Positions 10,482 to 64,000 of a stretch of DNA of 64,000 nucleotides are shown here, one piece after another. This DNA comes from Taiwanofungus camphoratus (Eukaryota; Basidiomycota; Agaricomycetes; Polyporales; Taiwanofungaceae). A program made the position numbers and the translations under genes. The stretch is from the NCBI GenBank assembly GCA_003999685.1, contig CP021232.1, forward strand, positions 1,240,001 through 1,304,000. Reading direction: 5' to 3'. Every line of letters begins with the position of its first letter. Position 1 is the stretch's first letter. Under the pieces are notes generated by a model. The model had not been told where the DNA came from, searched no databases, and saw only the letters and a program-made list of their open reading frames with translations.

Positions 10482-11289
10482 ATGCAGAGAATACTATTGG
10501 ATCCATCTGAGGCCCAATGTCTGGACTATGCATCTCCAAGATATGCAGCTACTCGGGCATCATGTATCAATGCCAACACTACTGAGGCTCAAGCAATCCA
10601 GCTGCTGATAAACATATGGCATAAAGCCAATCAGGTGGGTAGACAACAGTGGCAAAACCAGCTAGATGAACAGGCAGCAATATTAGAAAACCACATTCAT
10701 CTAGCAGAGGAAGCTGAGACACATCAGCGTGAAGCTGCAAAGATCGAAGAAGAAGCCACACAGAAGAAAGAACTAAAGAAGAACAAAGGGAAATACATTC
10801 CTATTCCAGACCGAGATGCACCAATCATCACACCAGTTCTTCTGGCAACTTATGCAGTCAGGAAGATGGAAAAAGGTCTGTATGTGGAGATGTACTATTA
10901 CACTAACAAGGGGCTTGATGAGGCAATCAATGTCACTGGCACAATTGATGATGAAGCAATGGTTCTCCAACAAAATGCAAATGGAACAATGGTGTGGGTA
11001 CCTGCTGCTGCAACCAGAGATGCGTGTGGTGTTATTGATGATAAGGATCTGGTGTGGGAAGATTTCTGCCAGGCAGTTCTGAGAATGATCCTTGCCATGG
11101 AACAAGCTGGATGGCTTGCAGAGCAAGTCCTCATGGTCGCAATGTTCTGGAGAAAATCTTCATATTCATCCAATGCGGTCATTAAGAGATCCATTAGATC
11201 AGAAGACACTACTGCTCTATCAAGCGGAGCAGCGGAAACTGTGGCATATGGCCATCCCCTCAGCACAGGGCGCATAGAATCTATCACGA
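10482..11289 (+). pseudogene. DIRS-like element, ORF1 part (fossil)
   Basis: A Glu/Lys/Gln-rich central stretch (LAEEAETHQREAAKIEEEA) is followed by a globular region with KYIPIPDRDAP and WVPAAATRD. I recognise this as the protein that usually precedes the reverse transcriptase in Agaricomycete DIRS-like elements. Its remainder resumes at 13,050 after the LTR-like insertion. Broken. Confidence 0.6.
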
Positions 11290-13049
11290 TGATGAGTCCC
11301 ATAGCCTCCTGGGCCCCGAATAGCGATTTTAGGAGCTTTCTAATCCCCTAACCGACCATTCTATGACTCTTCTACAGCCTACGACAGGTGGGATAGGTTC
11401 CTATAATATTCCTAACACCTCCTTTCCTTTCTAAACCCTTCTAACACCCTACGAAGTCCTGCAAAGTCACATGAGATGCTACGAGGTTTCAAACGCTAGC
11501 CACAAAGTCTCTAACTCCTGCTAAGTCCACTATCGGACACTGCCGGCCCTCCCATACTGTTCTATTGGATCTAGGTCCCAGCTACTACGTCACTCATCCT
11601 GGGCTTAGCTAAGAAGTCTTAGCTAAGTCTCTCCTAGCTCTTGTGATTGCAGCTACCTCCGATAGGCTCTGAAACGGTCTGAAGTTCCGGAGGCTGGACT
11701 TAGGAAGTCTTGCGCACCCATGGGTCTCGATCCTATGCCATAAGGTCCTCCTATGGCGCATCCATATGATCCTCCACCCATTTAGGACACCTCCTATCCC
11801 GATTAGGCCAAGTCCTGCTGCTAGAAACTTTGTACGCTCTTAGCCCACTAAGATAGTTGATCATGGCACATGGCTGCTCTTGGATAGTCATCCTGCCCTT
11901 GTGAATGAACTTGGTCACCTTTCTACCATACGTAGTTCCCCTGCTTCAGTTCCTATTTAGTTCCTATCCTCCTCGTGTTCACTTCGGAGCCCATGCGCTG
12001 TAGTACACATTTCGGACTCATAAGGATCACTTCGTGCAAGAATAGTTTACCTCACGCTCCCCTATTTAGTCAGAGGTAGTCTACTATGTACGAGAGAGAC
12101 CCCTCAGTGCACGCTTCTTCCTTTGGAATACAAGTTCCCCTGTAGCTCCAATCTCAAAAAGTGCTGCGAGTACAACCTTAGGAACGGTCCTAAGCCCCTA
12201 AGTCTCTACCCCAGCTCTGTTTCAGTATCTTTGAACTACGTCTACGCTTGCGATATATCTACAAACCACGCCTACGCTTCCCGAACTACGCACTATGATC
12301 CATGAAGTCACCGTGACTTCGCATCCTTCAGCACCTCTTACAGCACCTATCCGATGGGCCTCCGCCTTAGTTATACCCTTAGGCTCACATTGCGTCATCC
12401 CTACGTCCTACAAATAGCCCTACGACTCTACCGTAGCCTTTATTTCAGATAATAGTACATCTCCCTACACCTTCAAACTCCCTGATCTACGCCTCAAAGT
12501 CATCAGACACTTCGGAGCTTCCAGCAACCTCGTTCTCCTATTCCTATGCCAAGTATTAGCTCTCTGAACCATCTGACCTCTTCTACAGGTCTCCTACGCT
12601 AGCCAAATCTCGCCCATCTCACTCTAACAAACCTCTAAGTCTTACGCCCTTTAGTTAACTCTAGTTAAAGACTTCGCAGCAGTCTCGTACCCTCTGCCGC
12701 TTAGTTGAAACTATATTCTATTGGCTTATTGCTCCCTAACCCCATACAGCCTACGAAGTCAGCTCGTGCGCTTTAGCTAAAGCTTCAAAGGACTTCGCAA
12801 AACTTTGAAGGACTTCGCACACTTCGGAGGGCCCCGCAAGGCCTTAGGAATTGTACAGCACTTAGGAACAAGATCCTGTCATGCAGGACCCTTGGCCTCT
12901 TACTCCCTCACTTACAAAAACAAGACATACAGGTTTCCCGGTATCATACAGGTTGTAGCTCCTCCCCTCACATCCCCACAGTTCACACACTACCTACTAG
13001 CCATGTTGCAGAGCACTCCCTAGGTACCAGGGTCCCCTAGGTCGTATCA
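11290..13049 (+). mobile_element. LTR-like element, copy 1 (1760 bp, long form; probable solo LTR)
   Basis: Starts TGATGAGTCCC and ends GGTCGTATCA. It is flanked by ACGA (11286-11289) and ACAA (13050-13053), a 4-bp duplication differing only by a CpG-to-CpA transition. It is homologous along its length to copies 2-5 in this window and interrupts ORF1 of the DIRS-like element. TG...CA ends and a 4-bp duplication fit a solo LTR of a Ty3/gypsy-type element. No coding internal region is present. Confidence 0.75.
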
Positions 13050-13218
13050 ACAAATCAGTGAAGAGATCTTAGAAAGAACCAGGGCATGAGTTTACTGGGA
13101 AGACCGACGGCAAAAAGACAATCAGAGAGATTTGTATATCCATAATATTCATATGCCTTAGAAATTTATACTCATATTATCCCCCCCCCTTCTTTCAATG
13201 TCAGGATTTAGCTCCCTT

Positions 13219-13320
13219 TTTTCATCCTATTCCATCTGCCATCAAATGCCATCTGCCATCATATGCCATCTGCCATCATCCACCAGCGATCAATGTGCCA
13301 TCATATGCCATCGCAAAGCC
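13219..13320. repeat. Imperfect tandem repeat CCATCTGCCATCAAATG-type
   Basis: Repeats of the unit CCATCTGCCATCATATG with small variations, about six units, within the DIRS-like remnant just downstream of the first LTR-like insertion. Probably slippage-derived low-complexity sequence. Confidence 0.7.
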
Positions 13321-15642: not shown

Positions 15643-15646
15643 ACGT

Positions 15647-17252
15647 TGATACGACCTAGGGGACCCTGGTACCTAGGGAGTGCTCCACAACGTGGCTGTG
15701 GGGTAGTGTGATAACTGTGAGGATGTGAGGGTAGGAGCTACGACCTGTATGATACCGGGAAACCTGTATGTCTTGTTTTTGTAAGTAGGGGAGTAAGGGG
15801 TCAAGGGTCCTGCACAACAGGATCTTGTTCCTAAGTGCTATACTATCCCTAAGGCCTTGCGAGGCCCTCCGAAGTACGCAAAGTTCTTCAAGATTCTGCG
15901 AAGTCCTTCGAAGTTTTAGCTAAATCGCACGAGCTGACTTCGTAGGTGCTGCGAAGTCCTTTTAGCTAGAGTTAGCTAAAGGGCGTAAGGCTTAGAGGTT
16001 TGTTAGAGCGAGGTGGGCGAGGTTTGGCTAGCGTAGGAGACCTGTAGGAGAGGTCAGAGAGTTCGAGGGCGTAGGGAGATGTACTATAGCCTGAAACTAA
16101 GGCTATGGGAGAGTCGTAGGGCTATTCGTAGGATGTAGGGATGACGCAACGTGAGCCTAAGGGTATAACTAAGGTGGAGGCCCACCGGGTAGATGCTATA
16201 TGAGGTGCCGAAAGGTGCGAAGTCACGGTGACTTCGTGGATCGTAGTGTGTAGTTCGGGAAGCGTAGACGTGGTTCGTAGATATATCGTGAGCGTAGACG
16301 TAGTTCAAAGGTACTGAAACGGAGCTGGGGTGGAGACTTAGGGACCTTAGGACCGTTCCTAAGGTTGTACTCACAGCGCTTTCCTGAGATCGGAGCTACA
16401 GGGGAACTGGTATTCCAAAGAGAGAAGTGTGCACTGAGGGGTCTCCCTCTTACATAGTAAACTACCTCTGACTAAATAGGGGAGCATGAGGTGAACTATT
16501 CTTGCGCGAAGTGATCCTTACGAGTCCGAAATGTGTACTAAAGCGCATGGGCTCCGAAGTGAACATGAGGAGGATAGGAACTAAATAGGAACTGAAACAG
16601 GGGAACTATGTATGGTAGAAAGGTGACCAACTTCATTCACAAGGGCGGGATGACTATCCGAGAGCAGCCATGCGCCGTGATCACCTATCTTAGTGGGCTA
16701 AGAGCGCACGAAGTTCTTAGCAGCGGGACTTGGCCTAATCGGGGTAGGAGGTGTCCTAACTGGGTGGAGGGCCATATGGATACGCCCTAGGATGACCTTA
16801 TGGCATAGGATCGAGACCCATGGGGTGCGCAAGGCTTCCTAAGTCCAACTTCCAGAACTTCGGACCATTTCAGAGCCTATCGGAGGTAGCTGCAATCACA
16901 AGAGCTAGGAGAGACTTAGCTAAGACTTCTTAGCTAAGCCCGGGATGAGTGACGTAGTAGATAGGACCTAGATCCAATGGAACAGTATGGGAGGGCCAGC
17001 AGTGTCCAATAGTGGACTTAGCAGGAGTTAGGGACTTCACGTCTAGCATTCGAAACCTCGTAGCACCTCGTGTGACTTCGCAAGACTTCGTAGAGTGTTA
17101 GGAGGGTTTAAGAAGGAAAGGGGGCGTTAGGAATATTATAGGGACCTATCCCTCCTGTCGTAGGCTGTAGAAGAGTCTTAGAGTGGTCGGTTGGGGGATT
17201 AGAAAGCTCCTAAAATCGCGATTCGGGGTCCAGGAGGCTACGGGACTCATCA
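15647..17252 (-). mobile_element. LTR-like element, copy 2 (1606 bp, short form, inverted)
   Basis: Inverted relative to copies 1, 3 and 4. It is flanked by a perfect 4-bp duplication ACGT (15643-15646 and 17253-17256). It lacks two segments of roughly 70-100 bp present in copies 1 and 3, as do copies 4 and 5. It remains CpG-rich, which suggests a younger insertion than its surroundings. Confidence 0.78.
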
Positions 17253-17256
17253 ACGT

Positions 17257-18573: not shown

Positions 18574-20314
18574 TGATGAGTCCTGTAGTCTCCTGGGCTC
18601 CAAACCGTGATTTTAGGAGCTTTCTAATCCCCTCACAGACCATCCTATGACCATTCTACAGCCTATGACAGGTGGGATAGGTCCCTATGATGTTCCTAAC
18701 AGCTCCTCTGTCTCCTAAACCCTTCTAACACCCTACGAAATCCTGTGAAGTCACACGAGGTGCTACGAAGCTTCGAACACTAGCCACGAAGTCCCTAACT
18801 CCTGCTAAGTTCACTATCAGACACTGCCGGCCCTCCCACATTGTTCTATTGGGTCCAGGCCCCAGCTACTACATCACTCATTCTGGGCTTAGCTAAAAAG
18901 GCTTAGCTAAGTTTCTCCAATCTCTTGTGACTGCAGGCACCTTCAATAGGCTCCAAAATGGTCTGAAGTTCTGAAGGCTGGACTTAGGAAGCCTTGCACA
19001 CCCCCTGGGTTTCGATCCTATGCCATAAGGTCCTTCTATGGTGCATCCATATGATCCTCCACCCATTTAGGGCATCTCCTACCCCAATTAGACCAAGTCC
19101 CACTGCTAGAAACTTTGTACACTCTTAGCCCACTAAGACAGTTGATCATGGCACATGGCCGCTCTCGGATAGTCATCCTGCCCTCATGGATGGACTTGGT
19201 CATCTTTCTACCATACGTAGTTCCCCTGCTTCAGTTCCTATTTAGTTCCTATCCTCCTTGTGTTCACTTTGGAGCCCATGCACTTTAGTATACTTTTTGG
19301 ACTTGTAAGGATCACTTTGCGCAAGAATAGTTCACCTCACTCTCCCCTATTTAGTCAGAGGTAGTTTACCATGTACGACAGAGACCCCTCAGTGCACACT
19401 TCTCTCTTTGAGATACAAGTTCCCCTGTAGCTCCAATCTCAGAAAAGTGCCACAAGTGCAACCTTAGGAACGGTCCTAAGCCCCTAAGTTTCCATCCTAG
19501 CTCCGTTTCAGTATCTTTGAACTACGTCTATGCTCACGATATATCTACGAACTACATCTACGCTCCTCAAACTGTGCACTACAATCCACGAAGTCGACGT
19601 GACTTTGCACTCTTCAGCACATCCTATAGCACCTATCTGGTGGGCCTCCGCCTTAGTTATACCCAAAGGCTCACATTGCGTCATCCCTACGTCCCACGAA
19701 TAGCCCTACGACTCTCCTATAGCCTTCATTTCAGATCATAGTACATCCCTTGACGCCCTCTAACCCCTCGACCTACACCTTGAAGTCAACGGACACTTCA
19801 GAACTTCCAATGACCTCATTCTCCTGTCCCTCTCCCAGTATTGATTCCCCGAACCATCTGACCTCTTTTATAGGTCTCCTACGCTAGTCAAATCTCACAC
19901 ACCTCATGCTAACAAGCTCCGAAGCATTAAGCCCTTTAGCTAACTTTAGTTAAGGACTTCGAAGCAGTCTCGTACCCTTCGCCAATTAGTTGAACCCATA
20001 TCCCCCTTGACCTATCCCCCCCTTACCCTACGTAGTCTACGAGGTCAGCTAGCGTGCTTTAGCTAAAACTTCGAAGGACTTCGCACACTTTGAAGGGCCT
20101 TGCAAGGCCTTAGAGATCGTCTAGCACCTAGGAACAAGATCCTGTCAACAGGACCCTTGGCCCCTTACTCCCTTGCTTACAAAAACAAGACATACAGGTC
20201 TCCCGGTATCATACAGGTTGTGGCTCCTTTCTGCACATCCCCACAGTTCACACACTACCTCTTAGCCACATTATGGAGCACTCCCTAGGTACCAGGGCCC
20301 CCTAGGTCATATCA
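18574..20314 (+). mobile_element. LTR-like element, copy 3 (1741 bp, long form)
   Basis: Starts TGATGAGTCC and ends CATATCA. It is flanked by CCGC (18570-18573) and CTGC (20315-20318), a 4-bp duplication with one CpG-to-TpG change. Internally many positions that are CG in copies 2, 4 and 5 are TG or CA here, so it is the oldest-looking copy. Inserted at the end of the tyrosine recombinase region. Confidence 0.75.
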
Positions 20315-21682: not shown

Positions 21683-24600
21683 TCAGTTATCGTTCACATT
21701 GATGTGAGGGTCGTCGCGAATGTTGGGTTTCGCTATCCCCTCATCTATCCAATTATGGTACATTTCAAATGCCTTTGCTTCGACGTCGTACCACTCGCAG
21801 AAATCCCGGTATTTTCCACCCAAGGCGGTGGTCATACCGGGATCTAAATGTCGGTCTGCATGGAACCGCTGCCAGGCCGCTTGTCTTCCGACAGTGTGGC
21901 ACATAAGACGGGCACGAGTGAATGTTCTCGTCCGCGCAGCTTCAGCTTCAAGCAGGGATTCTGCCAGAATCTCTGCCCAGTCAAAGGTGGAGACCATCGG
22001 GTTGAGCTGAAGGAACTCCATGATGTCATCCGGGGTCCATCCCTTTTGTTCAGGGGGCCCCATCAGAAGCGGATCGCGAGGACCCTGTTGGCGCTTCGTC
22101 CTGATCCAAAATGGACAGTCAAAGAGCACGTGTTCTCTGGTTTCTTCCGCTCCGCATAAGCAGAGGTGAGGGCCAGGGATATTGAACCTAGAACGGTATT
22201 CACTGCCTGGGAAATGGTTGGTGAGCACACGACACACGCGTGCCACCTCCTTGTTGGACTTGCCAGCTGCCTTCGAGACCCACGTGCCCTTGGCCGTGGT
22301 TCCGTGCAGCGGTAGAGCATCCTCGATTACTTTCCATAACCGTCGGCCGTGATAACTGGGGTTATCAACTTGTGTCCCCCAGCGCTTTTTGACCCTTGCC
22401 TTGACGCGGGCAAGGGCCATCGATTGTGAGATGAATTCCGGTTGGGGATCATCCAATGCCTTCTTCGCGAGTTCGTCGACAAACTCGTTCTGAAAAATGC
22501 CTTTATGGGAAGGGACCCAAAAAAGGACAATGTGTCGGCGTTCATCTGTATCGAGGAACGCTCGAACATGTTGAGAGGCCATGATCGCCGCCATTTGCGA
22601 CGATCCGACTTCCGGCTTGAAAATTTGGTCCAGTGCCGATTGGTTATCGGAACAGACTATGAGGGTGGTGATGTGGGCAGGGACGTCACGGACCGCTTCT
22701 CGCAGCCCGCGCGCCAATGCCAGCATCTCCGCATCGAAGCTCTGGACCTTACCGGCCCCAAATCTTCCATGGGCAACGTGATCTTCCCCGTCGATGATGA
22801 GCCATGCGCTACCAGATCTTACTGTGGGCGCATTTGCATACGATCCATCAGTAAATAACATTCGCCCTTCTGGCTGGGCCAACTGGCGCCGGAATTCCGG
22901 CCACCAGGTGAACTCCAACCAGTCGGCGAATTCAGGTGAGCGTTTGTTTGGACCTTTTTTATCCAGGAACACCCGCTCAAATCTATCAATGTACCGGTCC
23001 ACAACCCGATCTCCGGGCCGTGCCTCCAGGTGGAGGGGTGCAAAGTCTTCTGATGACTGCCGCCCTATGCGATCTATGAATGTTATAGGAGTGACAGCCT
23101 GTTTCTTGCTACGGCGCGAATTAATCGGCCATGGCGCAGTGATATTGGTTACGTTAGTCGCCCAATATGGTGGAAGAACAGCCCTCATTGGGTGTCCTTC
23201 ATGAATTTGCCTCGCTCTAAGCGCAGCTTTTTCCATGTATCGGTCAACCTGGATGCGGATGGGGACCAATCCACCCAACATCTCCATTGCCCCAATTGGT
23301 GTGGTCTTAAAACAGCCAGTTATCCACCTAGCTGCTCTCGACTGGGCGGTCTGTAATTCTTTTGCAGCCCATTTGAGGCCCTTCCACTGTGGATTCCACC
23401 ACAGTTGAGCGCCGTATAGCATCAGCGGAACGACGTGCGCTATATAGAGCCGCCGTTTGTTGATGGGATGGAATCCTCGTGCCGAATTCCCGAGCATGCG
23501 GAGTGCATTGCACGTGCTGGCCGCCTTGTTGGCGTAAAACCACACATGTGCATGGAAGCTAAGCTTGGGGTCTAAAAAGAACCCAAGATAGCGCATCGTA
23601 TCTTTTGCTCGCAAAGTGACGTCGTGTCCATCAGTTCGGATAGTTAGGTCCGGGCCAAGGGGTCGGGAAGTCGAATACCCCTTCTGGCGCTTCCAGAAGT
23701 GCATCAACTCCAATTTGTCTCCTTCGACGCCTAAACCTAAACGGTTCAGATCGCCAACGAGATCATGGAAGACATCCACCATGATGGCGTTGTTTTTCAG
23801 GACAAGGGCTTGCGGGCTGTCATCTACAGCCTTTGGCGAAGCCGCCATGATGAGACCGTCGTCCACATAGAACTGAGTCCCTGTTCGGCCCGGTTGTACC
23901 AAATGGACTGGTGCCCATTTGTGTATGACCGGTGCAATGTATACCCCTGATAATATCGGGGATAAACTCGATCCTTGCCCGACTCCGACATCAAAGTCGG
24001 ATGGATCGATCAAGGTACCATTAAACATGAATCTGGTTTTTCGCCCGATCAAGTAATTTGCCATGAAATTGCAAAGTTTGTTATTGAAGCCCTGCTTTCG
24101 CATGATTCCTACCAGCGCATCATGATTGATGGACGGGTAGAACTGTGACACATTGAGCAATAGCACCGATGGGATAAGGTTGCGCGCCCATGCCTCTTTG
24201 ACATTGTGTACTAATTGAATTCCAGCGTCTGTGGTGCTATGCTGCATAGCTCCACCAAACTGACATGGGTGTAGGATTCCCCATTTTTGGGCATCCCACT
24301 GCATTCGTTTGGCAATGATCTTTTCGAACAATTTGCCAAAGCAATTGAGCAAGCATATAGGCCTGTAGGCCTTCGCTAGCGTATAATCTGGTTTGTTCGG
24401 TTTGGGCAGAACCACCGTAACAGACCGTTTAAAGACGCTCGGGTACACCTCGAAATCGAGGCAGGCGTTATAGTACGCGCGCAGCCACTGCCGCACGTGT
24501 ATGCCGAGATCGGTCTCGATGCCCTCCTCGGAGCGCTCGATCCGGTCTACCATCCATTTAATCCACATCCAGTTCACATGATCAGGACCGGGTGCGGATG

Positions 24601-26182
24601 TATTGCTAGTGGATTTGAGATTCTCACGAATCTCAGTCTCACTAATATCCGGTAGAGTCACTTCCTCTTGTTGAGGAATTTCGTCTACAAATGACAGATC
24701 CACTGGCCGTGGGTTGGCAGGCGTGAACTGAGCTTGGAACGTGCGACTGAGATCAGTCGCGCTTTGGACTGGCGCACCATCAGCTTGTCGCAGCTGAATA
24801 GTGGCCTCTTGTCGTCTCGGCTTTGTCCAGGCGACAAAATCCGAGATTAGTTGGGGATTGGATTCGTCCATGATCCGATCAAAGTGTGCACGCTTTGCCC
24901 GCTTTGTGGCCAGGCAAAGTGTTGCACGTTGTTTGTGCCGTTCGGACCGGAGTTCGGCAGCAATATCGTATGCGTCTGCAGTGGCCTGATTGCCAGATCC
25001 CAACTGATGACGTGTGTAGCGATACTGTCCAGACGCCGTATTAAGGCGGTGTTGGGTGTTCGCTAGCTTAGTGGCCGCACGGGAGCATGCAGCATCCCAC
25101 CACGACTTTGAACGTTTGGATGGTCGTTTTACTGCTGAAAATTCCATCCATAATCGTTGGAGGTCTCGCTCTAAACGGTCCCCCATTCTTTCAACGCCTT
25201 GTGCACTGCTGAAGTGTGTTGGGTAATTAGCGAACAATTTCGCTGTCGCCGTCACAAATTGTTGGGCCGCGTCGCCAGTGCGAGGAATACCCCGCACCGG
25301 TTCTGGCTCAACCTCAATCGGCATCTCCCACCGCAGGACCACGTGGTCACTGTTGTGGCGATGTGACATGAGTACATGAAGGTTTTGGCCTTCATAGTAC
25401 ACTGGGTTGATCCACACCAAGTCTATGACTTCAGGCGTGAGAGCAATGTTATGGGAACGCCAAGTGACTGGACCGTCCTGGGCGTTCATCAATATCAGAT
25501 CGAGTTCGGCCTGGGCCAACTCGATGAGGCGATTGGAATCAGCATAGTGCGGAGGCCGCATCTGAGATCCCGCAGCTCGTGTATCCCACAATGGGTGGCG
25601 GAGATTGAAATCCCCGCACATACACGCAATGGGTGGAAGCGCGTGTACACGTGTTTCCAAATATCGGACAGCATCAAAAGTGGTGCTGTTATTGTACACG
25701 TTCAGGACATTAAAGTCTCCGGACGGAAGCTTGAGCGTTACCAAAAGGCAATCCTTATGGGAGACGCTGTGAGTGACAACTTGTGGAGAAGCCGAAGCCC
25801 ACCGCTTGTTGACATAAACTGTGACTCGGGAATCTTTTGATGCCCCGAGGCACTTGAACGAGGCATGGGCAGACGTGTTCTCATACGCCTCCCCGTCTCG
25901 TGACTTAGCTGAGGCCACATCTTTGATGCGTCCCCAGTATATTTCTTGGATACATATTATATCAGCGTCCCTATGTCTTTCCAGCAAAATGCCAGTATTT
26001 TCCGCCGATTTCTGGACATTTGCACTAATAATGGTGAGGACATGCCGATTGTTCGGTTCATTCTCAATTTCTTCGCTTCCAGCTGGTGGGCTGGGTGTGC
26101 GGTTGAGGTCCGGTGTCTCATATGGAGATTCGGATCTTTCATGCGTAGTATTTACAGTCTGTCTTTGTGGTGTACTATACAT
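21683..26182 (-). CDS. LINE ORF2: endonuclease, reverse transcriptase, RNase H
   Basis: 1499 residues from ATG 26182 (the frame is open a little further upstream, without ATG). Domains: APE-type endonuclease, roughly residues 45-280, with SANVQ, CIQEIYWG, CGDFNLRHPLW and NSDHVVL. Reverse transcriptase, roughly 560-850, with VVLPKPNKPDYTLAKAYRPI, VGQGSSLSPILSGVYIAP and the motif C box FYVDDG near residue 770. RNase H, roughly 1105-1240, with FTDGS, SDNQSAL and NEFVDELAKK. A C-terminal zinc motif lies near 1337 (CLCGAEETREHVLFDCPFW). In reverse transcriptase motif A the expected LLLDVSQ reads LLLNVSQ: codon AAT at 24,154-24,152 replaces the first catalytic Asp (residue 677). The frame is otherwise unbroken. 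Confidence 0.92.
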   Translation of the reverse strand: MYSTPQRQTVNTTHERSESPYETPDLNRTPSPPAGSEEIENEPNNRHVLTIISANVQKSAENTGILLERHRDADIICIQEIYWGRIKDVASAKSRDGEAYENTSAHASFKCLGASKDSRVTVYVNKRWASASPQVVTHSVSHKDCLLVTLKLPSGDFNVLNVYNNSTTFDAVRYLETRVHALPPIACMCGDFNLRHPLWDTRAAGSQMRPPHYADSNRLIELAQAELDLILMNAQDGPVTWRSHNIALTPEVIDLVWINPVYYEGQNLHVLMSHRHNSDHVVLRWEMPIEVEPEPVRGIPRTGDAAQQFVTATAKLFANYPTHFSSAQGVERMGDRLERDLQRLWMEFSAVKRPSKRSKSWWDAACSRAATKLANTQHRLNTASGQYRYTRHQLGSGNQATADAYDIAAELRSERHKQRATLCLATKRAKRAHFDRIMDESNPQLISDFVAWTKPRRQEATIQLRQADGAPVQSATDLSRTFQAQFTPANPRPVDLSFVDEIPQQEEVTLPDISETEIRENLKSTSNTSAPGPDHVNWMWIKWMVDRIERSEEGIETDLGIHVRQWLRAYYNACLDFEVYPSVFKRSVTVVLPKPNKPDYTLAKAYRPICLLNCFGKLFEKIIAKRMQWDAQKWGILHPCQFGGAMQHSTTDAGIQLVHNVKEAWARNLIPSVLLLNVSQFYPSINHDALVGIMRKQGFNNKLCNFMANYLIGRKTRFMFNGTLIDPSDFDVGVGQGSSLSPILSGVYIAPVIHKWAPVHLVQPGRTGTQFYVDDGLIMAASPKAVDDSPQALVLKNNAIMVDVFHDLVGDLNRLGLGVEGDKLELMHFWKRQKGYSTSRPLGPDLTIRTDGHDVTLRAKDTMRYLGFFLDPKLSFHAHVWFYANKAASTCNALRMLGNSARGFHPINKRRLYIAHVVPLMLYGAQLWWNPQWKGLKWAAKELQTAQSRAARWITGCFKTTPIGAMEMLGGLVPIRIQVDRYMEKAALRARQIHEGHPMRAVLPPYWATNVTNITAPWPINSRRSKKQAVTPITFIDRIGRQSSEDFAPLHLEARPGDRVVDRYIDRFERVFLDKKGPNKRSPEFADWLEFTWWPEFRRQLAQPEGRMLFTDGSYANAPTVRSGSAWLIIDGEDHVAHGRFGAGKVQSFDAEMLALARGLREAVRDVPAHITTLIVCSDNQSALDQIFKPEVGSSQMAAIMASQHVRAFLDTDERRHIVLFWVPSHKGIFQNEFVDELAKKALDDPQPEFISQSMALARVKARVKKRWGTQVDNPSYHGRRLWKVIEDALPLHGTTAKGTWVSKAAGKSNKEVARVCRVLTNHFPGSEYRSRFNIPGPHLCLCGAEETREHVLFDCPFWIRTKRQQGPRDPLLMGPPEQKGWTPDDIMEFLQLNPMVSTFDWAEILAESLLEAEAARTRTFTRARLMCHTVGRQAAWQRFHADRHLDPGMTTALGGKYRDFCEWYDVEAKAFEMYHNWIDEGIAKPNIRDDPHINVNDN

Positions 26183-26204
26183 AGGCAATTATAAAATTGT
26201 CCGC

Positions 26205-28829
26205 TTATGCGACAGATCCTCCAACACCTCGAGGCCTGGGCGTGCTCGAGTCGCTGGAATGAATCTCTCCGCTTTCGTGACCAGATACGCCTTCTACATC
26301 AGAAGGGTCCGTGATTTCAAACGACTCTCCCGCAGGTCCGGGCCGAGCTGGCTGTTTGCCGCATGCCTTTTCAGATAGGCCACGTAATTTACCTCTGGTA
26401 GCCGCTTTAGCGGCCGCCGTCCTTCCTTTGGCGACAGACAACACCGGCGGGTGTGTCTTATGCCACTGTTGATCACGTCGCTTCTTCGCCCATTGGCACT
26501 TGGGCGAATCCGCTTGATGTCCATCTTCGCCAGTTTTGCCACAATTCGGGCAACTGGCGTGTTCAGGTGGGCATGCAATGGTTTTCACCGACAATGCAGC
26601 CCTTCGTTGTGCGCAACACGAAGCTTGTTCTTCGTGTAGTGCCAATATATGAGGTTCGCCACATTTGACGCAACACTCATGAGCAGATTGACATAATGGG
26701 GCAATATGACCCCATCTCCAACACCGGAGGCAAATCGGGACAGCTGACGTCTCGATCCACGGTTGTAAACGGTACGTCTTGCCGAAGAGATGGACCGGTT
26801 TCTTCATGATCCGGATGGCCATAGAACCAGACCAGGTGTCGAATATGGCGAATATGAATAAGCCGCTGCCGCCTGAGGCTGATTGATACCTAGCCTTAGG
26901 CGAGTGGTGTGGGTGTAGGACTAATTCCTCCGCCCACTCGTTGTTGCGCACGAGTTCTTGAAAAACTTCGAGCGGCGTGTATTCGACCCTAGACCCTTCC
27001 CGGTACAACGGGAAGGCCTTGATCGCCATTTGGGTGATTACGTGAGCCCAGTCGAGCGAAAGCCCAACTGGGTTCATTCTGTTTGGTGCCACATGGAGAG
27101 CGACTAATTGTCTCATGCCAGCTCTAAGGGCACCCAATTCCGTGGTGGTGGGGCGTTCACTGCATATCAAGTGTACCTCCCCGTTTCCAGGTGGCACAAT
27201 GGCATTGACGAGGTAGTTGACTGAGTTACCCGCTCCAGCCAGCAGTTGTTGCACGACGACCTTGAGGCTGTCGAGATTTAGGAGATCGCCGAGTTCAAGA
27301 GCTCGGTCGAATCTGAGAATTACGGTCTTGGGGCTTGCACCCCGGGCCGGTTGCGTCGCGTGTTTGATTACGGGTGGGGGGCGGGCATTTATGGCCGTCC
27401 CTATTGTGATTAATGGACGGGTTGGGTCCCGTGCCACCATTGTGGGGCCTATTCCACGTCCACGTCCTAATCCAGGGCGGAGACGGGGGTCGCGCGTGTA
27501 TCTGCTATCGCCTTGTCGAGATGACGTTGGAGCGGGAGCAGCCATGCCTTGTGCCATGCGTAAAGCGTCCGACAAGGAAATGTTGGGGGCAATTTGTGCG
27601 ATCTCTGTCGCTCCCCGTATGTCGTCCCAGTTGGGACCATCATCGGCTGTAAGGTTGATTACCGGACCGGTATTCGCCCTTTTTGCTGCAGGCGAAGCCG
27701 CCCTACTCCTTGTGGGAGAGGGTGGGGCTGCGCGCTTTTTTCCCTTATCTGCAGATGCAGATTTGGGTCCTTCGTTAGGTGGCGACTGGATTCGCACCTG
27801 TTTGGGCGTCTGTTTCGCAGACGATGAGGCCGTAGCAGCAGCGTAACCTGGTGCGGCGGCAGCTATTCCCTCCACTCTCTTTGACAGTGCTCGTAGAGTG
27901 GACGTGTTTGTGGTGACAGCTTGGATTAATTTACCACTGTCATTGGTGGTTGAGGTCGCAATGGCCCCAAGCGTTGTGCGTGCTCCTTCAAACCATTGAT
28001 CCGATGGTTTGGGGAGTACCGATGTGAGTGCTACCGACATTTCGCCGATTGTTTTGCGTTGTTCAGCAATAGTGGATTCCAACTCCGCCCTAATGTCGAC
28101 TAGTTCACGTACACGGGTGGCCAAGTGACCAATCCCGTTAATATCCACGATATGTTCCGCTCCAATCAACGTGACCATTTGATTGGCCACTTGCAAAGCG
28201 GCTTGTGCCGTGTCCCTCCACTCAAGTCCGTAGGCTTCAGCGCGGTACTTATTAACATCCCTCCGTATGATGCGCGAGTACGCATCCTGGTCGACGTGTA
28301 AAGTATACGAGATGTGTTGCAACGATTCCCTGATGGCCGCTAGCAGGGAGTCTGGAGTCTCATCTTGTGACGAACAGGTGCCTTGGAAGACCTGCACTTT
28401 GGGTGCCGTTGCATACATCGTGGCCTCGGGTAAAGCCGAGCCATGCGGTGCAGACCCCCCCTGTGGGAAATCAATAAATGTGTTGTCCTCGATGTCCCTC
28501 TGGGGTTTGCTCACCTCTGGTGTGGGGGTGGGCATGAAGGGCTGAGATGGCATGAAAGCCGCTGCAGCAGATGAAGGAGGTGGAGATGACTCTGGGATTG
28601 TCTCCATCTCAAAGGAGGCTCCACGAGCAAGTCGTAAAGCCTCAACTTGGGCTTGGGTTTGAGATCCCCGCGCATCAGGCGCAGGATATGGGGCAGGTCG
28701 CCCTGAAGGTGTACCGCCGGACACCCTCGAAGACGAAGTGCCAGTCGAGGACGTCCCAATGACTTGATAGTCACCAGCGGTATGTTGGGAGCCAGTTGGG
28801 TGAGAAGAGGGAGTGAAAACAGGGGCCAT
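26205..28829 (-). CDS. LINE ORF1: Gag-like nucleic-acid-binding protein
   Basis: 874 residues from ATG 28829. The N-terminal half is Pro/Ser/Ala-rich and low in complexity, then a predicted helical region follows. A globular middle (about residues 470-690) is followed by zinc knuckles: CLRCWRWGHIAPLC has the C-x2-C-x4-H-x4-C spacing, with two further Cys/His clusters (CVKCGEPHILALH; CPNCGKTGEDGHQ). This is the usual layout of ORF1 in fungal LINEs, where it binds the element RNA. It ends with TAA at 26205-26207, 22 bases before the ATG of ORF2, so ORF2 may be reached by reinitiation (inference). Confidence 0.88.
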   Translation of the reverse strand: MAPVFTPSSHPTGSQHTAGDYQVIGTSSTGTSSSRVSGGTPSGRPAPYPAPDARGSQTQAQVEALRLARGASFEMETIPESSPPPSSAAAAFMPSQPFMPTPTPEVSKPQRDIEDNTFIDFPQGGSAPHGSALPEATMYATAPKVQVFQGTCSSQDETPDSLLAAIRESLQHISYTLHVDQDAYSRIIRRDVNKYRAEAYGLEWRDTAQAALQVANQMVTLIGAEHIVDINGIGHLATRVRELVDIRAELESTIAEQRKTIGEMSVALTSVLPKPSDQWFEGARTTLGAIATSTTNDSGKLIQAVTTNTSTLRALSKRVEGIAAAAPGYAAATASSSAKQTPKQVRIQSPPNEGPKSASADKGKKRAAPPSPTRSRAASPAAKRANTGPVINLTADDGPNWDDIRGATEIAQIAPNISLSDALRMAQGMAAPAPTSSRQGDSRYTRDPRLRPGLGRGRGIGPTMVARDPTRPLITIGTAINARPPPVIKHATQPARGASPKTVILRFDRALELGDLLNLDSLKVVVQQLLAGAGNSVNYLVNAIVPPGNGEVHLICSERPTTTELGALRAGMRQLVALHVAPNRMNPVGLSLDWAHVITQMAIKAFPLYREGSRVEYTPLEVFQELVRNNEWAEELVLHPHHSPKARYQSASGGSGLFIFAIFDTWSGSMAIRIMKKPVHLFGKTYRLQPWIETSAVPICLRCWRWGHIAPLCQSAHECCVKCGEPHILALHEEQASCCAQRRAALSVKTIACPPEHASCPNCGKTGEDGHQADSPKCQWAKKRRDQQWHKTHPPVLSVAKGRTAAAKAATRGKLRGLSEKACGKQPARPGPAGESFEITDPSDVEGVSGHESGEIHSSDSSTPRPRGVGGSVA

Positions 28830-28890
28830 TTCGACGACTAAGCTAGGGCGCCTAATGGAGATGGTGGTGGTACTGGTTCAAGAAGCGGTG

Positions 28891-32867: not shown

Positions 32868-33288
32868 TCTCTCTGTCGTATGGTGGCAGGACTAGAGTAG
32901 AGAGATTAAGGCTATACCTTGTGGTGGTCCGGCACATTTATAATGAGATAAGCTAATCATCCAATGGGAAATCCAGGCATCGCAAAGTCAGTTCCCAGTT
33001 AGCCAAATATTTCCTCCAGTGGGTTGATTCAGAGGCCCTGGGATGTATCATCTCATTCACGCCCATCATCCTTACTTCTTGCAGCTTCCGACTCTGCAAT
33101 GGTAAACGCAACTGAGAGGCTCTCTTTGTTTGAGAACAGCTTCAGGAGCTGTAGTTCAGAAGTTGAGATAAAGGTATGCCGCACCTTATCATTGGGAAGA
33201 AACATGCTGCACGTCTATTCTTGAACAGTCTCATCGCTGGGGGTTCTCTATCGTCGACCTACTTATGTATGCCGTTATCTCCAATGGA

Positions 33289-37999: not shown

Positions 38000-38623
38000 A
38001 TCGCTTGAAACAGAGGAAAGGACAAAGCGACGATGCCCCATAGGCAGGCTTACTTTACCAAATGATTTATGCAAAAACCACAGATAAGGACTGCCCCCAT
38101 TCAGACTCAGGCATTAGAGCCCGAGCTCGTATCAGCGAGCCGACCCCTTCTGGTAAATTGGGTAGCGCATTAATCGAATGGAAGCCAACATACTCTGTAA
38201 TTCTTCTCGTTCCAAAGAGAATTCACTTGGAGCATCACGTTGACCCTCGAACTTACCACTTGTTCATTCTCCTAAAGCCACCTTCGGACAATACATTTGC
38301 AAATGACACCCATGCCGGTCGCATGGGCCGACTGGAAGCAGGAATGATACACCAGCAAGAATGCAGACGCTGCGAGGACCAGGACCGTGCTATCGCACGT
38401 GTGATCAGACTGGCTTCTAGAGTGCGGGTACCATAGCACGATACAACAGAAGGGTAGCTCATCGGGCCTTTGACGTTCATGCAGAAAGGGGGCCATTCAA
38501 CTGACGAAGAGACGCATAAGCTTCTACTGATTATATATTGCATCGTACCTTATCGGTAACCACAAACGTGCATCGTGGCTCTAACTTCAGTGGATGCATT
38601 GGTCCTTATCTTTGGTCGTATAG

Positions 38624-56434: not shown

Positions 56435-57410
56435 TGATAGGCGCCAGGCCCTTCTAGGCCCCGTGGAGCGCCCTCACTCGACCCTAGGACCTTAGTCATA
56501 CCTTCAACGCCACTCGACACGTCCGATACAGCCCAAAAAGCCACCGCGGGACTCTCTGATGGCTTCGAATCACATCACCGCCACTCCGCCAGTTCCGGTC
56601 CGATGTTCCGGTGCACCGTTCTCTCTACGCACAATACGCCACACGCAGTTGCCACTCAATGTCCTCGCACGTGACTGGTCTCGCCACTCCAATATCGCTT
56701 GATCTGCTACGACGCACCACTCGATGTACTTGATAACGCTACGGCCCCAGGCCTTGTCTTAGTATATTTCATGCCACTCCATAGTTAGTACGCAAGTAGT
56801 TAGGATGCCACTCGTACTATGCCACTCCCAATGCACCTTACATTATAGTACAGTAGTATAAACACAATGTATGGCGTCTGGGAACAACAGAGAAGTTCTC
56901 CCCCATCCTGCAGAGCTCAAGAAGAGCACCTTCGATTCAGTCTCCTACTGCGTTCTACTGCGTCCTTCCGTCTTCGATTACGTTCGAAGAGTTGCGTCTA
57001 CTATCCGCCTTCTACAGTATCTTGAAGGGTTGCGTCTCGTCCGTCTTCGACATCCATCGAAGAGTTGCGTTCAGTCTTACGTCCACCTTCGAGTCACATT
57101 GAAGGGTTGCACTAGCATCTCTCTCTAACCCAAGTCCGCCTTTTACAGTATTTCGAAGGGCTGCATATCAGCTAAGTTCTCATGTTTGAGCCTCTCCTTA
57201 GTATAGTACAGCATAGTAGCGCATCGAAGCTATGTCAAGCAGTCACGACATACGTCGAAGGTCATCGAAGACCTTCGTAGACGTCTCTCGACCCATTTGA
57301 GATCGGGAACCCTTTGCTGCTGACTCTCCCCTCCACACTAACTAGTTCTATAGCCTTTCAGCTTCTCTAGGTCGAACCCAGTAGGGGTTGGAGTGCTATA
57401 GTGCGCATCA
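56435..57410 (+). repeat. Ty3/gypsy element A, 5' LTR (976 bp)
   Basis: Starts TGATAGGCGCCAGGCC and ends GTGCGCATCA, so it has the TGAT...ATCA termini. Flank is ACGG (56431-56434). It contains many GCCACTC motifs (56,500-56,840) and a degenerate tandem block with TTCGAAGGGTTGCGTC-like units (about 56,980-57,170). TTTCTGGAGCCCACCG, just after the LTR, is a possible primer-binding site. Its first 340 bp recur inverted at 61,332-61,674. Confidence 0.75.
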
Positions 57411-60400
57411 TTTCTGGAGCCCACCGCGAGGGGATTTCAGGCAAGGAATCCGCCGCTTTCAGATTCGCCGAAGACGTCTCCAGTATTCACCCGCTCACAA
57501 GCACGTGAGGCTGCCAGTCGTAGTGCAAGCGAAAACCTCGACAACAGTTCTACCACCCTTTCCACAACTCCTGACACCTTCGACCACGAGGAAGAAGACC
57601 TCGTAGATCACGAGCTAGAGTTTCCTTCAACCTCCGATGAACGTACTTCGTCTCCCGAGCTTCTAGGGCTATCTACGCCAGAAGTCAACCTCTCGTCCCC
57701 TGATTCCTACGAACAGTCCGGTTCATCGCCTGAGCCAGAGGACCCAGTAGAATCAACATCGCATACCGCTATCCTCACTACTATGACTCTACCCTCGTCC
57801 CAGCAGACCATTACTCCATACATTCTTCTCAGTTTTTTGAATCACCCCACACCAGCCACTGTCAATCCCTCTACTCCTAAACCTACAATGAATCAGAACG
57901 TGGCACCTACGCCATTTATGCCCCCTCAAGGCCATTTGACAGCCCCCATCTTCGACCCGACAGAAGTCCGATTGCTTTGACATTACTTCCAGGACATCGA
58001 AGTCTTATTCACCCAGTGCAGAATAGTCGATGACGCAGAAAAGAAGTCATGGGCCATTCGTTACCCCTCGATCGATGTCGCAGACCTATGGGAAACCCTC
58101 GAATCCTTTTCCGATCAGACCAAGACATACGCACAGTGGAAAGCCAACATCCTAGCACTCTACCCAGGTATCGATGACACCAGGAAATGGTCCCTTGCAG
58201 ACATGGACCAGTTGATTGGGGAGCACGCACACATTGGAATCCACAACGCCGCAGACCTCGGAAGCTACTACTGCGACTTCGTATCTATTACGAAGCACCT
58301 AATCACGCAACGACGACTCTCTGACATCGAACAGAGTCGAGCGTTCCTACGAGGCTTCCAGCCTTCTCTACTTGCACAACTCGAGGCCCGACTTCACCTG
58401 AAACATCCTGACCACTATCCTGATGACCCCTATCCACTTTCCAATATTCATGCAGTGGCCACGTTCATTCTTCATGGTACTTCGAGTACGCCGACAGCCG
58501 CAGCACCGCAGACAACAGCTTCGACAACTACTCCGCTGATGAGTCCCGTAGCCTCCTGGGCCCCGAATCGCGATTTTAGGAGCTTTCTAATCCCCCAACC
58601 AACCACTCTAAGACTCTTCTACAGCCTACAACAGGAGGGATAGGTTCCTATAATATTCCTAATGCCCCCTTTCCTTCCTAAACCCTCCTAACACCCTACG
58701 AAGTCTTGCGAAGTCACACGAGGTGCTACGAGGTTTCGAATGCTAGACGCGAAGTCCCTAACTCCTGCTAAGTCCACTATCGGACACTGCCGGCCCTCCC
58801 ATACTGTTCCATTGGATCTAGGTCCTATCTACTACGTCACTCATTCCGGGCTTAGCTAAGAAGTCTTAGCTAAGTCTCTCCTAGCTCTTGTGATTGCAGC
58901 TACCTCCGATAGGCTCCGAAACGGTCCGAAGTTCCAGAAGTTGGACTTAGGAAGCCTTGTGCACCCCCATGGGTCTCGATCCTATGCCATAAGGTCATCC
59001 TAGGGCGTACCCATATGGCCCTCCACCCAGTTAGGACACCTCCTACCCCGATTAGGCCAAGTCCCGCTGCTAAGAACTTTGTGCGCTCTTAGCCCACTAA
59101 GATAGGTGATCACGGCGCATGGCTGCTCTCAGATAGTCATCCCGCCCTCGTGAATGAAGTTGGTCACCTTTCTACCGTACGTAGTTCCCCTGTTTCAGTT
59201 CCTAATTAGTTCCTATCCTCCTCGTGTTCACTTCGGAGTCCATGCGCTTTAGTACACATTTCGGACTCGTAAGGATCACTTCGCGCAAGAATAGTTCACC
59301 TCACGCTCTCCTATTTAGTCAGAGGTAGTTTACTATGTACAAGAGAGACCCCTCAGTGCACGCTTTGCTCTTTGGAATACCAGTTCCCCTGTAGCTCCGA
59401 TCTCAGGAAAGCGCTGCAAGTACAACCTTAGGAACGGTCCTAAGGTCCCTAAGTCTCCACCCCAGCTCTGTTTCAGTACCTTTGAACTACGTCTACGCTC
59501 ACAATATATCTACGAACCACGTCTACGCTTCCCGAACTACGCACTACGATCCACGAAGTCGCCGTGACTTCGCACCTTTCAGCACCTCATATAGCATCTA
59601 CCCGGTGGGCCTCCGCCTTAGTTATACCCTTAGGCTCACGTTGCGTTATCCCTACGTCCTACGAATAGCCCTACGACTCTCCCATAGCCTTAGTTTCAGG
59701 CTATAGTACATCTCCCTACGCCCTCGAACTCTCCGACCTCTCCTACAGGTCTCCTACGCTAGCCAAACCTCGCCCACCTCGCTCTATCAAACCTCTAAGC
59801 CTTACGCCCTTTAGCTAACTCTAGCTAAAAGGACTTCACAGCACCTACGAAGTCAGCTCGTGCAATTTAGCTAAAACTTCAAAGGACTTCGCAGAATCTC
59901 GAAGAACTTCACGTACTTCGGAGGGCCTCACAAGGCCTTAGGGATCGTATAGCACTTAGGAACAAGATCCTGTTGTGCAGGACCCTTGACCCCTTACTCC
60001 CCCACTTACAAAACAAGACATACAGGTTTCCTGGTATCATACAGGTTGTAGCTCCTACCCTCACATCCTCACAGTTATCACACTACCCCACAGCCACGTC
60101 ACGGAGCACTCCCTAGGTGCCAGGGTCCCCTAGGTCGTATCACCGCCCGGCATGATTAAGACCGAAGACATCTCGACGATCATCGAAAGCCTATCGAAGA
60201 CCATCGCCACCCTTATTCAGCCCAGTAGTAACAAATTGAACGTAGCCGCTAGGCTTTCGTCAACCCAAGGTGGTACAGAACAGACCTGCCACTTTTGCGG
60301 CGACCAGAACCATAGTATTCGAAGCTGCCCGCACGTAGAAGCAGACATAGCCGCTGGGAAATGCAAGCGTAACACCGAAGGAAAGGTCGTACTCCCAAAC

Positions 60401-61331
60401 GGTCTATTCATCCCACGTAGTATCCCTGGCATTACAATCCGCGACCGCCTCTACGAGTGGATTCACCGCAACGCACCAGCAGCACCTGGCCTGCTCTATG
60501 GCATCGATGAACAAGCCAGCGTCCAGACTTTCACGCTCAACACGGAAGGAAGAATCAAAGCCCTCAAAAGAGAGCTCCTACAGCTTCGAAAACGTAGGGA
60601 GGTCTTCGACGGCGTTGAGATTTTACAGCGCAAGAAACCTACTACGACACCGCAGCAGACCACAGAGGTTTCTGATACGACCCCCATCTCACGCAGTACC
60701 AACAACCCAGCGCCTGACACAGTCAAGTCAGCCGCTCCTACTGCAGTCCCAGTCCCAGCAACCCCAGCTAAACCTTCGACGAGTACCTCTGCACCTTCGA
60801 CGATCCCCGCAGCTATAGTTCCCCCGCTGTCCGTACCTTCGACACAGCCCGCTACCGTATCTACTCCATCAGCGCCCCCAGTCCATCCCTTTGCAAATGC
60901 TCGAGACGCGACCTACGCTCCGCTGAACCTTCAAAACTTCGGTACGCCGCCTAAGCCTTCGAACGACAAGGGCAAGGACCCAGCTTACAAGACCATAGTT
61001 CCCATTCATCAGCCCAAGATAGCCGACGACATCTTCACGCGCTCAATGGGATCTCCTCTCGTCACACTGACGCCAGAAGAACTTCTTTCGATCTCGCCTG
61101 ACGTACGCAATAGGTATCGAGAAGCAGTTACACCCAAGCAAGTATCAGCGGAACCCGTCACTTCAGCACACATCGTAGAGATTACCGACGAAGACGAAGC
61201 AAAAGAGGTACACCAACTATCTTGTTCAGGTGCAGTGCTACAGCCAGGAGCTACTATCGTCCCTGACCCCTACGAAACCTATCTCAAGCACATCCCGCAT
61301 GACAAACATCCCGTCAATCTCACGGTTGCGA
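57411..61331 (+). mobile_element. Ty3/gypsy element A, internal region with Gag (fossil)
   Basis: Fossil. A Gag-type region runs from about 57,440, is interrupted by the LTR-like copy 4 (58,537-60,142) and continues to 61,331. It carries an acidic/Ser-rich N-terminal part, a capsid-like helical part (about 57,980-58,500), one zinc knuckle CHFCGDQNHSIRSC (about 60,290-60,330) and a long Pro/Thr/Ser-rich linker. It stops near the expected start of the protease domain. No reverse transcriptase, integrase or same-orientation 3' LTR is present, so the element is truncated; the remaining part shows only about one further break besides the insertion and looks rather young. Confidence 0.72.
58537..60142 (+). 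mobile_element. LTR-like element, copy 4 (1606 bp, short form)
   Basis: TGATGAGTCCC...GGTCGTATCA with a perfect 4-bp duplication CCGC (58533-58536 and 60143-60146). It is inserted in the Gag region of gypsy element A, so it is younger than that element. It has the same length as copy 2 and is very close to copy 5. Confidence 0.8.
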
Positions 61332-61674
61332 GTGGCATGAAATATACTAAGACAAGACCTGGGGCCGTAGCGTTATCAAGTACATTGAGTGGCGCGTTGT
61401 AGCAGATCGAGCGATATCGGAGTGGCGAGACCGGTCATGTGCGAGGACATTGAGTGGCAACTGCGTGTGGCGTATTGTGCGTAGAGGGACCGGTACACCG
61501 GAACATCAGACCAGAACTGGCGGAGTGGCGGTGGTGTGATTCGAGGCTATCGGAGAGTCCCGCGGTGGCTTTTTGGGCTGTATCGGACGCGTCGAGTGGC
61601 ATCGAAGCCATGACTAAGGTCCTAGGGTTGAGTGAGGGTGCTTCACGGGGCCTAGAAGTGCCTGGTGCCTATCA
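61332..61674 (-). repeat. Inverted partial LTR of gypsy element A
   Basis: Inverted copy of roughly the first 340 bp of the 976-bp LTR (56,435 onward). It ends in GCCTATCA (the inverse of TGATAGGC), followed by ACGC (61675-61678). Its inner border at about 61,332 is abrupt and coincides with the end of the Gag region, so a deletion or recombination junction lies there. Confidence 0.75.
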
Positions 61675-62516
61675 ACGCACAAGCACAATACACTTTATTT
61701 ACCAGGTTACATCGTAGTAGGAGAGAAAGCCGTCGCCGCATGCCCCTTGTTGGATAGTGGGGCTGACGCCAACCTAATTCACCCCGACTTCATAAGGAAG
61801 TGGGGACTCCCCACTCGACCGCTTCCCAGGACAGTAACCTCAACCACCATTGATGGCTCTACAAACAAAGGGGGACCAATTACCCACAGAGTCGAAGGAA
61901 GTATACAATTAGAGGGGAATGACATTCCAACCAACTTTTACGTCTCAAACATTGGAACGCTCGACGTAGTACTCGGCAACCCCTGGCTCGCACAAGTCAA
62001 CCCACACATTGACTGGGTAGAAGGAACACTCGAGATTGACCAAGCTCGACTCACAGAATGGCAAGGATACTATGCCTGGATCATGAGCCAACCCACAACA
62101 GACAGAATTCCCCTGTGTTGAGCTTCCATTCATGAAGACGATGAGGAGCTTTTGGACATAATGTGTGCTTACACACAAGGAGAAGGGGTTCTGGGGATCT
62201 TCCAACAGAAAGAGCAGCTGCTCACATGTGAAGACGGGCTACTGCAGGCCCTAAAGCCCCCACAGCCCCCACAAGTAGGGCTCAATCGACTAACACATTT
62301 CTCTGACTCCCCACATATGGTATGGAATGCCCCAGAGCTCACGGAATTGGTGATCTCCAAGGACCCACCCCCGTCCATAGAAGACCTCGTCCCAGAATAC
62401 CTGTGGGACTATAAACGGTTGTTTGAAAAGGAGGCCACTAACCGGTTCCCAGAATCCAAGCCCTGGGACCATGCCATTGAATTAAGGCCAGACTTCGTGC
62501 CCAGGAAATGCGCCGT
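61675..62516 (+). pseudogene. Ty3/gypsy element B, protease to start of reverse transcriptase (fossil)
   Basis: Fossil fragment of a second gypsy lineage. It has an aspartic protease with the active-site motif LLDSGADANLIHPDF (about 61,747) and VVLGNPWL, then the typical lead into the reverse transcriptase (PWDHAIELRPDFVP near 62,470-62,505). It is broken at about one place in the coding part and cut by the LTR-like copy 5 at 62,517. Confidence 0.7.
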
Positions 62517-64000
62517 TAATATGACCTAGGGGACCCTGGCACCTAGGGAGTGCTCCGCGACGTGGCTGTGGGGTAGTGTGATAACTGTGAGGATGTGAGG
62601 GTAGGAGCTACAACCTGTATGATACCAGGAAACCTGTATGTCTTGTTTTGTAAGTGGGGGAGTAAGGGGTCAAGGGTCCTGCACAACAGGATCTTGTTCC
62701 TAAGTGCTATACGATCCCTAAGGCCTTGTGAGGCCCTCCGAAGTACGTGAAGTTCTTCGAGATTCTGCGAAGTCCTTTGAAGTTTTAGCTAAATTGCACG
62801 AGCTGACTTCGTAGGTGCTGTGAAGTCCTTTTAGCTAGAGTTAGCTAAAGGGCGTAAGGCTTAGAGGTTTGATAGAGCGAGGTGGGCGAGGTTTGGCTAG
62901 CGTAGGAGACCTGTAGGAGAGGTCGGAGAGTTCGAGGGCGTAGGGAGATGTACTATAGCCTGAAACTAAGGCTATGGGAGAGTCGTAGGGCTATTCGTAG
63001 GACGTAGGGATAACGCAACGTGAGCCTAAGGGTATAACTAAGGCGGAGGCCCACCGGGTAGATGCTATATGAGGTGCTGAAAGGTGCGAAGTCACGGCGA
63101 CTTCGTGGATCGTAGTGCGTAGTTCGGGAAGCGTAGACGTGGTTCGTAGATATATTGTGAGCGTAGACGTAGTTCAAAGGTACTGAAACAGAGCTGGGGT
63201 GGAGACTTAGGGACCTTAGGACCGTTCCTAAGGTTGTACTTGCAGCGCTTTCCTGAGATCGGAGCTACAGGGGAACTGGTATTCCAAAGAGCAAAGCGTG
63301 CACTGAGGGGTCTCTCTTGTACATAGTAAACTACCTCTGACTAAATAGGAGAGCGTGAGGTGAACTATTCTTGCGCGAAGTGATCCTTACGAGTCCGAAA
63401 TGTGTACTAAAGCGCATGGACTCCGAAGTGAACACGAGGAGGATAGGAACTAATTAGGAACTGAAACAGGGGAACTACGTACGGTAGAAAGGTGACCAAC
63501 TTCATTCACGAGGGCGGGATGACTATCTGAGAGCAGCCATGCGCCGTGATCACCTATCTTAGTGGGCTAAGAGCGCACAAAGTTCTTAGCAGCGGGACTT
63601 GGCCTAATCGGGGTAGGAGGTGTCCTAACTGGGTGGAGGGCCATATGGGTACGCCCTAGGATGACCTTATGGCATAGGATCGAGACCCATGGGGGTGCAC
63701 AAGGCTTCCTAAGTCCAACTTCTGGAACTTCGGACCGTTTCGGAGCCTATCGGAGGTAGCTGCAATCACAAGAGCTAGGAGAGACTTAGCTAAGACTTCT
63801 TAGCTAAGCCCGGAATGAGTGACGTAGTAGATAGGACCTAGATCCAATGGAACAGTATGGGAGGGCCGGCAGTGTCCGATAGTGGACTTAGCAGGAGTTA
63901 GGGACTTCGCGTCTAGCATTCGAAACCTCGTAGCACCTCGTGTGACTTCGCAAGACTTCGTAGGGTGTTAGGAGGGTTTAGGAAGGAAAGGGGGCATTAG
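62517..64000 (-). mobile_element. LTR-like element, copy 5 (short form, inverted, runs off the window)
   Basis: Inverted copy nearly identical to copies 2 and 4, starting at the inverse of the GGTCGTATCA end and inserted in the reverse transcriptase start of gypsy element B. The 4 bp before it are CCGT (62513-62516). At 1606 bp it would end about 122 bp beyond the window, so its second flank cannot be checked. Confidence 0.75.

Follow-up and report, generated by a model that had tools for sequence, protein, structure and literature searches.

Families A and B of Ty3/gypsy retrotransposons in Taiwanofungus camphoratus form nCGn target duplications, probably selected through base reading by their integrase

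Integrases of the retroviral type usually show weak target preferences. Two families of long terminal repeat (LTR) retrotransposons of the fungus Taiwanofungus camphoratus, here called A and B, generate 4-bp target-site duplications that read nCGn; they are described from a 64,000-nucleotide stretch, the window, which spans C13:1240001-1304000 of the 33.2-Mb, 15-contig genome and in whose coordinates positions are given. Among described systems, the Phygy lineage of Ty3/gypsy elements, from the moss Physcomitrella, has an NCGN insertion preference (Neumann et al. 2019, PMC6317226; this and the other papers identified by PMC number are cited from excerpts of their text). A and B share this preference and, like Phygy, are Ty3/gypsy elements outside the chromoviruses, without a chromodomain. 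The two systems differ in host and architecture: the moss elements are rather short, with an internal part that is nearly all polyprotein (PMC6317226), whereas the fungal elements reach about 12 kb, have LTRs of 1-1.76 kb and carry antisense open reading frames (ORFs) between pol and the 3′ LTR.

The errantivirus ZAM of Drosophila targets CGCGCg, and its integrase, as a glutathione S-transferase (GST) fusion, binds target DNA directly (PMC2527525). ZAM resembles A and B as an LTR element with a CG-containing target, but its CGCGCg motif does not describe their sites, in which the central CG alone is fixed and the outer bases vary. Subgroups of errantiviruses target TATA, CGCG or ATAT, and sequence-specific integration has been called exclusive to errantiviruses and their derivatives (PMC5408687). 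Further likenesses are the 4-bp duplications of most gypsy families listed and their palindromic, clade-specific motifs (PMC5408687, PMC3276498); all LTR families covered by the second of these sources tend generally to AT-rich motifs (PMC3276498). The closest solved structure to the A/B integrase piece, by sequence and fold, is the integrase of prototype foamy virus (PFV), which likewise makes 4-bp duplications (PMC4477651). Retroviral base preferences take the form of weakly conserved palindromes (PMC4422553), whereas the central CG of A and B is near-absolute. A search of the open-licence literature, mostly by titles and the opening lines of abstracts, returned no fungal lineage with an nCGn rule. 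A and B are a clean fungal example of what is probably a rare sequence-reading integrase, of a kind already known because an NCGN preference has been published for the moss Phygy (PMC6317226).

Genome-wide counts, restricted to exact LTR ends and independent of the choice of loci, place CG at the two middle positions of the flanking four bases in 275 of 431 family A 5′ ends and in 76 of 155 family B ends, against 3 of 218 ends of a control LTR family C, a share of which are internal 3′ LTRs; the enrichment of central CG that the earlier note had set as its decisive test is thus present genome-wide. A pyrimidine-purine (YR) step occupies the same positions in 362 A ends and 127 B ends, of which 87 and 51, respectively, are not CG. 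Among the first 100 of the 431 A ends listed, compared by hand, 64 carry CG, 19 carry CA or TG and 17 are not YR; all 17 read into the polypurine tract and so lie inside the element (three of them in L004, L040 and L057), and therefore 83 of the 83 external ends listed are CG or CA/TG. A hand count of the first 100 listed of the 127 YR ends in family B gave 62 CG, 23 TG, 14 CA and 1 TA.

The pattern is equally apparent at junctions read in context. L-numbers denote loci taken from the best-matching copies in the same genome, which are not a random sample. External junctions from the loci then collected and from the window, deduplicated by 30 bp of flank plus 14 element bases, number 134 and comprise 106 CG, 25 CA/TG and 3 others, one of which is a variant of the polypurine tract and belongs with the internal ends. 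The background frequency of the CG dinucleotide in the outer flanks is 131/3216 (4.1%), giving a binomial value of 10^-119 for the excess, a figure qualified by the dependence between both junctions of an insertion. These counts bear out the CpG-centred 4-bp target of one gypsy-type integrase lineage that the earlier note had proposed. Full-length elements carry the same signature, one A element being flanked by GCGG/GCGG and one B element by TCGT/TCGT. The outer positions of the duplication are variable, as are the bases beside it, and the CG stands at a fixed distance from both element ends. T in first place or A in last place is rare (15/212, compared with 32% for CG sites elsewhere in this DNA), and the base two places beyond the duplication tends to be a purine (93/134); this outer preference is a weak symmetric halo of a kind known for integrases.

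In all likelihood, the A/B integrase cuts its target with a 4-bp stagger and joins almost solely where the four bases read nCGn, the base being read by the integrase itself. Two protomers would act on opposite strands, each needing a C in second place among the four bases of its own strand, equivalent to G on the partner strand; with two-fold symmetry, this one-base need per protomer would therefore produce a central CpG. As a flexible YR step, CpG would also suit the bend for a 4-bp stagger, and central YR steps are favoured by retroviral integrases for bending (PMC4422553), but TA, CA and TG would all be admissible if flexibility were the sole demand. TA, self-complementary and flexible too, would go unused because each protomer needs C second. 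T in the first place would be disfavoured, and a CpG requirement arising by base reading would not need methylation. The enzyme matches the H2C2 integrase type in Pfam and has conserved D138, D196 and E231, read by eye as D,D35E. In PFV and murine leukemia virus (MLV), the C-terminal β1-β2 loop of the integrase determines which bases adjoin the points of joining, whereas more distal bases are set by the α2 residue, Ala188 in PFV (PMC4477651). The likeliest reader would be the C-terminal β1-β2 loop; in the B integrase piece, this candidate stretch covers approximately residues 364-380 and is strongly conserved.

A different reader is conceivable, namely an integrase or intasome partner that recognizes methylated CpG and putatively homes on silenced, methylated transposon DNA. 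The observed/expected ratio (o/e) of CpG is 0.65 in the 200-bp flanks, with the duplication excluded, compared with 0.83 in the pooled loci, 0.95-1.21 in five gene-like ORFs of the window and 0.93 in its long interspersed nuclear element (LINE); the insertions therefore sit in CpG-poor DNA. The earlier note had suggested a possible bias towards CpG-rich DNA, a reading that the flank value does not support. Depleted surroundings and CG duplications decaying to CA/TG are as in methylated DNA and speak for methyl-CpG reading, as does the effect that CpG methylation, going by the title of Kitamura et al. 1992, is said to have on retroviral integration in vitro. The CpG-poor surroundings may fit methylated, decaying repeats; however, the depletion can equally be later decay, and a cut centred on CG to the base is equally explained by reading of the unmethylated sequence. 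A methylation-dependent reader is unlikely, and it is quite doubtful that the integrase reads 5-methyl-CpG at the cut site directly, so that the lineage homes on silenced transposons without a chromodomain.

Comparison of the two halves of each duplication informs the origin of the CA and TG flanks. Among 41 two-sided copies, 27 have CG on both sides, 12 combine CG with CA/TG, 2 combine CG with another step, and none is decayed on both sides. The halves are identical in 20 of the 41, and in 10 they differ solely by a transition of the middle CpG, the difference that the earlier note had seen in its two imperfect duplications and that is thus frequent among imperfect duplications. Outer bases match at 67 of 82 positions, against a shuffled mean of 25.0 and maximum of 37. 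With double decay seen in none of the two-sided copies, decay of an original CG is the best reading of the CA/TG flanks, and the CG requirement is near-absolute after allowing for decayed CpG. The two halves seem to start as CG and to decay independently, forming a paired CpG-decay clock; in the proposed mechanism, CpG decay after integration would turn some CG duplications into CA/TG. The same counts bear on the idea that a flexible central YR step alone is selected, as in 4-bp-stagger retroviruses, with CG one of several admissible steps. Retroviral integrases do favour central YR steps (PMC4422553), and the commonest non-CG flanks, CA and TG, are YR. Nevertheless, TA is nearly absent (0 among the 100 A ends listed, 1 among the 100 B YR ends listed), original CA/TG targets should often show in both halves rather than in none of 41 against 12 one-sided cases, and the empty sites described below are mostly CG. 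Selection of flexibility alone is very improbable, being rejected by the near-lack of TA together with the lack of doubly decayed copies.

Family C, found by scanning the loci for TG...CA repeats bordered by duplications, provides the control. It has a 554-bp LTR (TGATACAA...TTGTATCA; L019:3154-3707), a full length of about 7 kb and 218 places in the genome. Ten chosen full-length C elements all have 5-bp duplications, with CG inside 2 of the 10. A second ten places comprise one solo LTR with a 5-bp duplication, seven with one internal side, one without a duplication and one without a readable 3′ end. The CpG pattern is absent from this other LTR family of the same genome. This absence also bears on chromatin targeting or survival, under which CG would be a by-product of persistence in certain DNA: many insertions do lie in repeats (18/35, by the empty sites below), but one would not expect tethering or selection to hold the cut to a single base pair, and with family C lacking the pattern, such an origin is barely credible.

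Empty sites reveal the source of the CG. For each of the 35 two-sided copies (out of 41) whose halves mismatch at no more than one base, the element was left out, its two flanks were put together, and the result was matched against the collected loci and the window with a cut-off of 80% identity. Paralogous empty sites were found for 18 of the 35 tested insertions, which is a lower bound. The matches at or above the cut-off comprise 151 rows, or 119 distinct contexts once overlapping loci and the window are merged, and these 119 divide into 85 CG, 33 CA/TG, 1 TA and no other. At least one CG empty site exists for 16 of the 18 insertions. One nCGn is already present at the empty sites, and the CG is therefore supplied by the target and not by the element. 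The proposal that the element ends include the CG and bring it in at integration, beside a shorter true duplication, has the fixed CG distance from both ends in its favour but next to no probability, being rejected by uninserted sites that already hold one nCGn (contradicting it for those 16 insertions) and by outer bases that vary yet match between sides.

Several observations weigh against base reading at nCGn as the whole account. Two insertions, A_L047 and B_L031, both of which landed in A LTRs, contribute 62 of the 119 empty sites, and 36 CG, 20 CA/TG and 1 TA remain without them; lowering the cut to 60% identity adds three sites that are neither CG nor CA/TG (CAGG, TCTG and ACCT). Among the 41 two-sided copies, 11 differ otherwise than by a CpG transition, with an outer-base mismatch, perhaps as recombinants or through mutation; one of the 41, the CG-plus-other copy L014, is really a 3′ LTR beside the polypurine tract. 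One full-length A element has CCGT/ACGT, misfit flanks occur as CTCT (L011), ACTG (L040) and the one TA in B, and 28 B ends, counted by pattern, are non-YR. The target-site data all come from one genome. With regard to the reader, both families have a plain alanine at the position that aligns with PFV Ala188, a position at which relatives vary, and the idea of a reader residue drawn from Ala188 was dropped on this ground. The integrase model is of low confidence around the candidate loop, and its overall predicted template modelling (pTM) score is 0.42, for which reason domain placement from the model is not used. No reader residue is proven, because the Ala188 position is plain and variable and the model is poor at the loop.

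Families A and B are Ty3/gypsy LTR retrotransposons of about 12 kb full length in which no chromodomain was detected. Three same-strand LTR pairs of family A lie about 10.47 kb apart, start to start, and one pair of family B lies 10.92 kb apart. Their LTRs end in TG...CA; TTTCTGGAGCCC, the presumed primer-binding site (PBS), follows the 5′ LTRs, and a polypurine tract precedes the 3′ LTRs, so that paired LTRs, PBS-like stretch and polypurine tract together give the Ty3/gypsy LTR architecture. The B pol is a single open frame of 941 amino acids (aa) with RNase H followed by an H2C2 integrase in Pfam, and the clade profile matches the Ty3 domains in the sequence reverse transcriptase (RT), RNase H, integrase, which is the Ty3/gypsy order. 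A match to RVP_2, a candidate for the aspartyl protease expected upstream of RT, occurs at 61636-62118, within a broken region. Neither the 941-aa B pol nor the A integrase ORF has a Pfam chromodomain at E <= 0.01, which sets both apart from chromoviruses. The integrase has a 67% relative in Heterobasidion irregulare, and a search of viral contigs found no relatives with DNA context. Although the A and B LTRs give no alignment, the 23 bases at the presumed PBS are identical and the integrases are 75% identical; because of these two identities, the seven window cases are two families of one lineage rather than independent lineages, in contrast to the earlier view of two unrelated element types.

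In both families, the interval from pol to the 3′ LTR contains antisense ORFs, as in L014:566-1333(-), L041:959-1549(-) and L040:6070-7035(+), and these include a CDRC...C..C stretch rich in cysteine. Pfam gave no match for the three pieces scanned, and one antisense ORF gave a single match in a search of 5.8 billion proteins. Beside a B 3′ LTR, L017:2416-3978(+) is a piece of another retroelement polyprotein with a retroviral-type protease.

The window holds five family A LTR copies of 1.6-1.76 kb and two of family B (a 976-bp LTR and a truncated one), and the central-CG flanks reported for these seven insertions read as the earlier note described them. In element orientation, the A copies at 11290..13049 (+) and 15647..17252 (-) have duplications ACGA/ACAA and ACGT/ACGT, and a copy of a diverged A subfamily at 18574..20314 (+) has CCGC/CTGC. 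The B 5′ LTR at 56435..57410 (+) has the left flank ACGG; its right side is internal and hence unreadable for a duplication, running into the 23-bp presumed PBS at 57411..57433 (+), identical in A and B. Within the internal region of this B element, an A copy occupies 58537..60142 (+) with the duplication CCGC/CCGC, and L016 and L036 show empty sites for it on the downstream side of B 5′ LTRs. The claim that all insertions sit in other transposons was borne out for this copy, one of four window copies tested. The truncated, inverted B LTR at 61330..61674 (-) has the external flank GCGT (ACGC on the plus strand). The last A copy, at 62517..64000 (-), crosses the window edge to C13:1304122 and has ACGG at its 3′ side and, just beyond the window (L002), ATGG at its 5′ side, one CpG transition away. 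In addition, a LINE-like element at 21683-28877 (-) encodes a 1500-aa ORF with endonuclease, RT and RNase H and a second, 889-aa ORF without a Pfam match, and four diverged copies of no named family, about 73-77% alike and spaced 2-3 kb, occupy 31260-40056. The protein of one window gene has a database match at 100% identity over 98%, and its best match with a named source is from Taiwanofungus camphoratus at 69% over 88%, in line with a polypore-like fungus as the likely host.

In a lineage whose two-base requirement is near-absolute, the way in which target bases are read can be tested directly. A motif common to moss and fungal lineages raises the question of common descent versus convergence, and an integrase preference for methylated CpG, if true, would directly link DNA methylation to transposon nesting. 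Every duplication is stamped with CG at birth, and the CG-to-CA/TG state of its halves therefore constitutes a built-in CpG-decay clock for fungal repeats.

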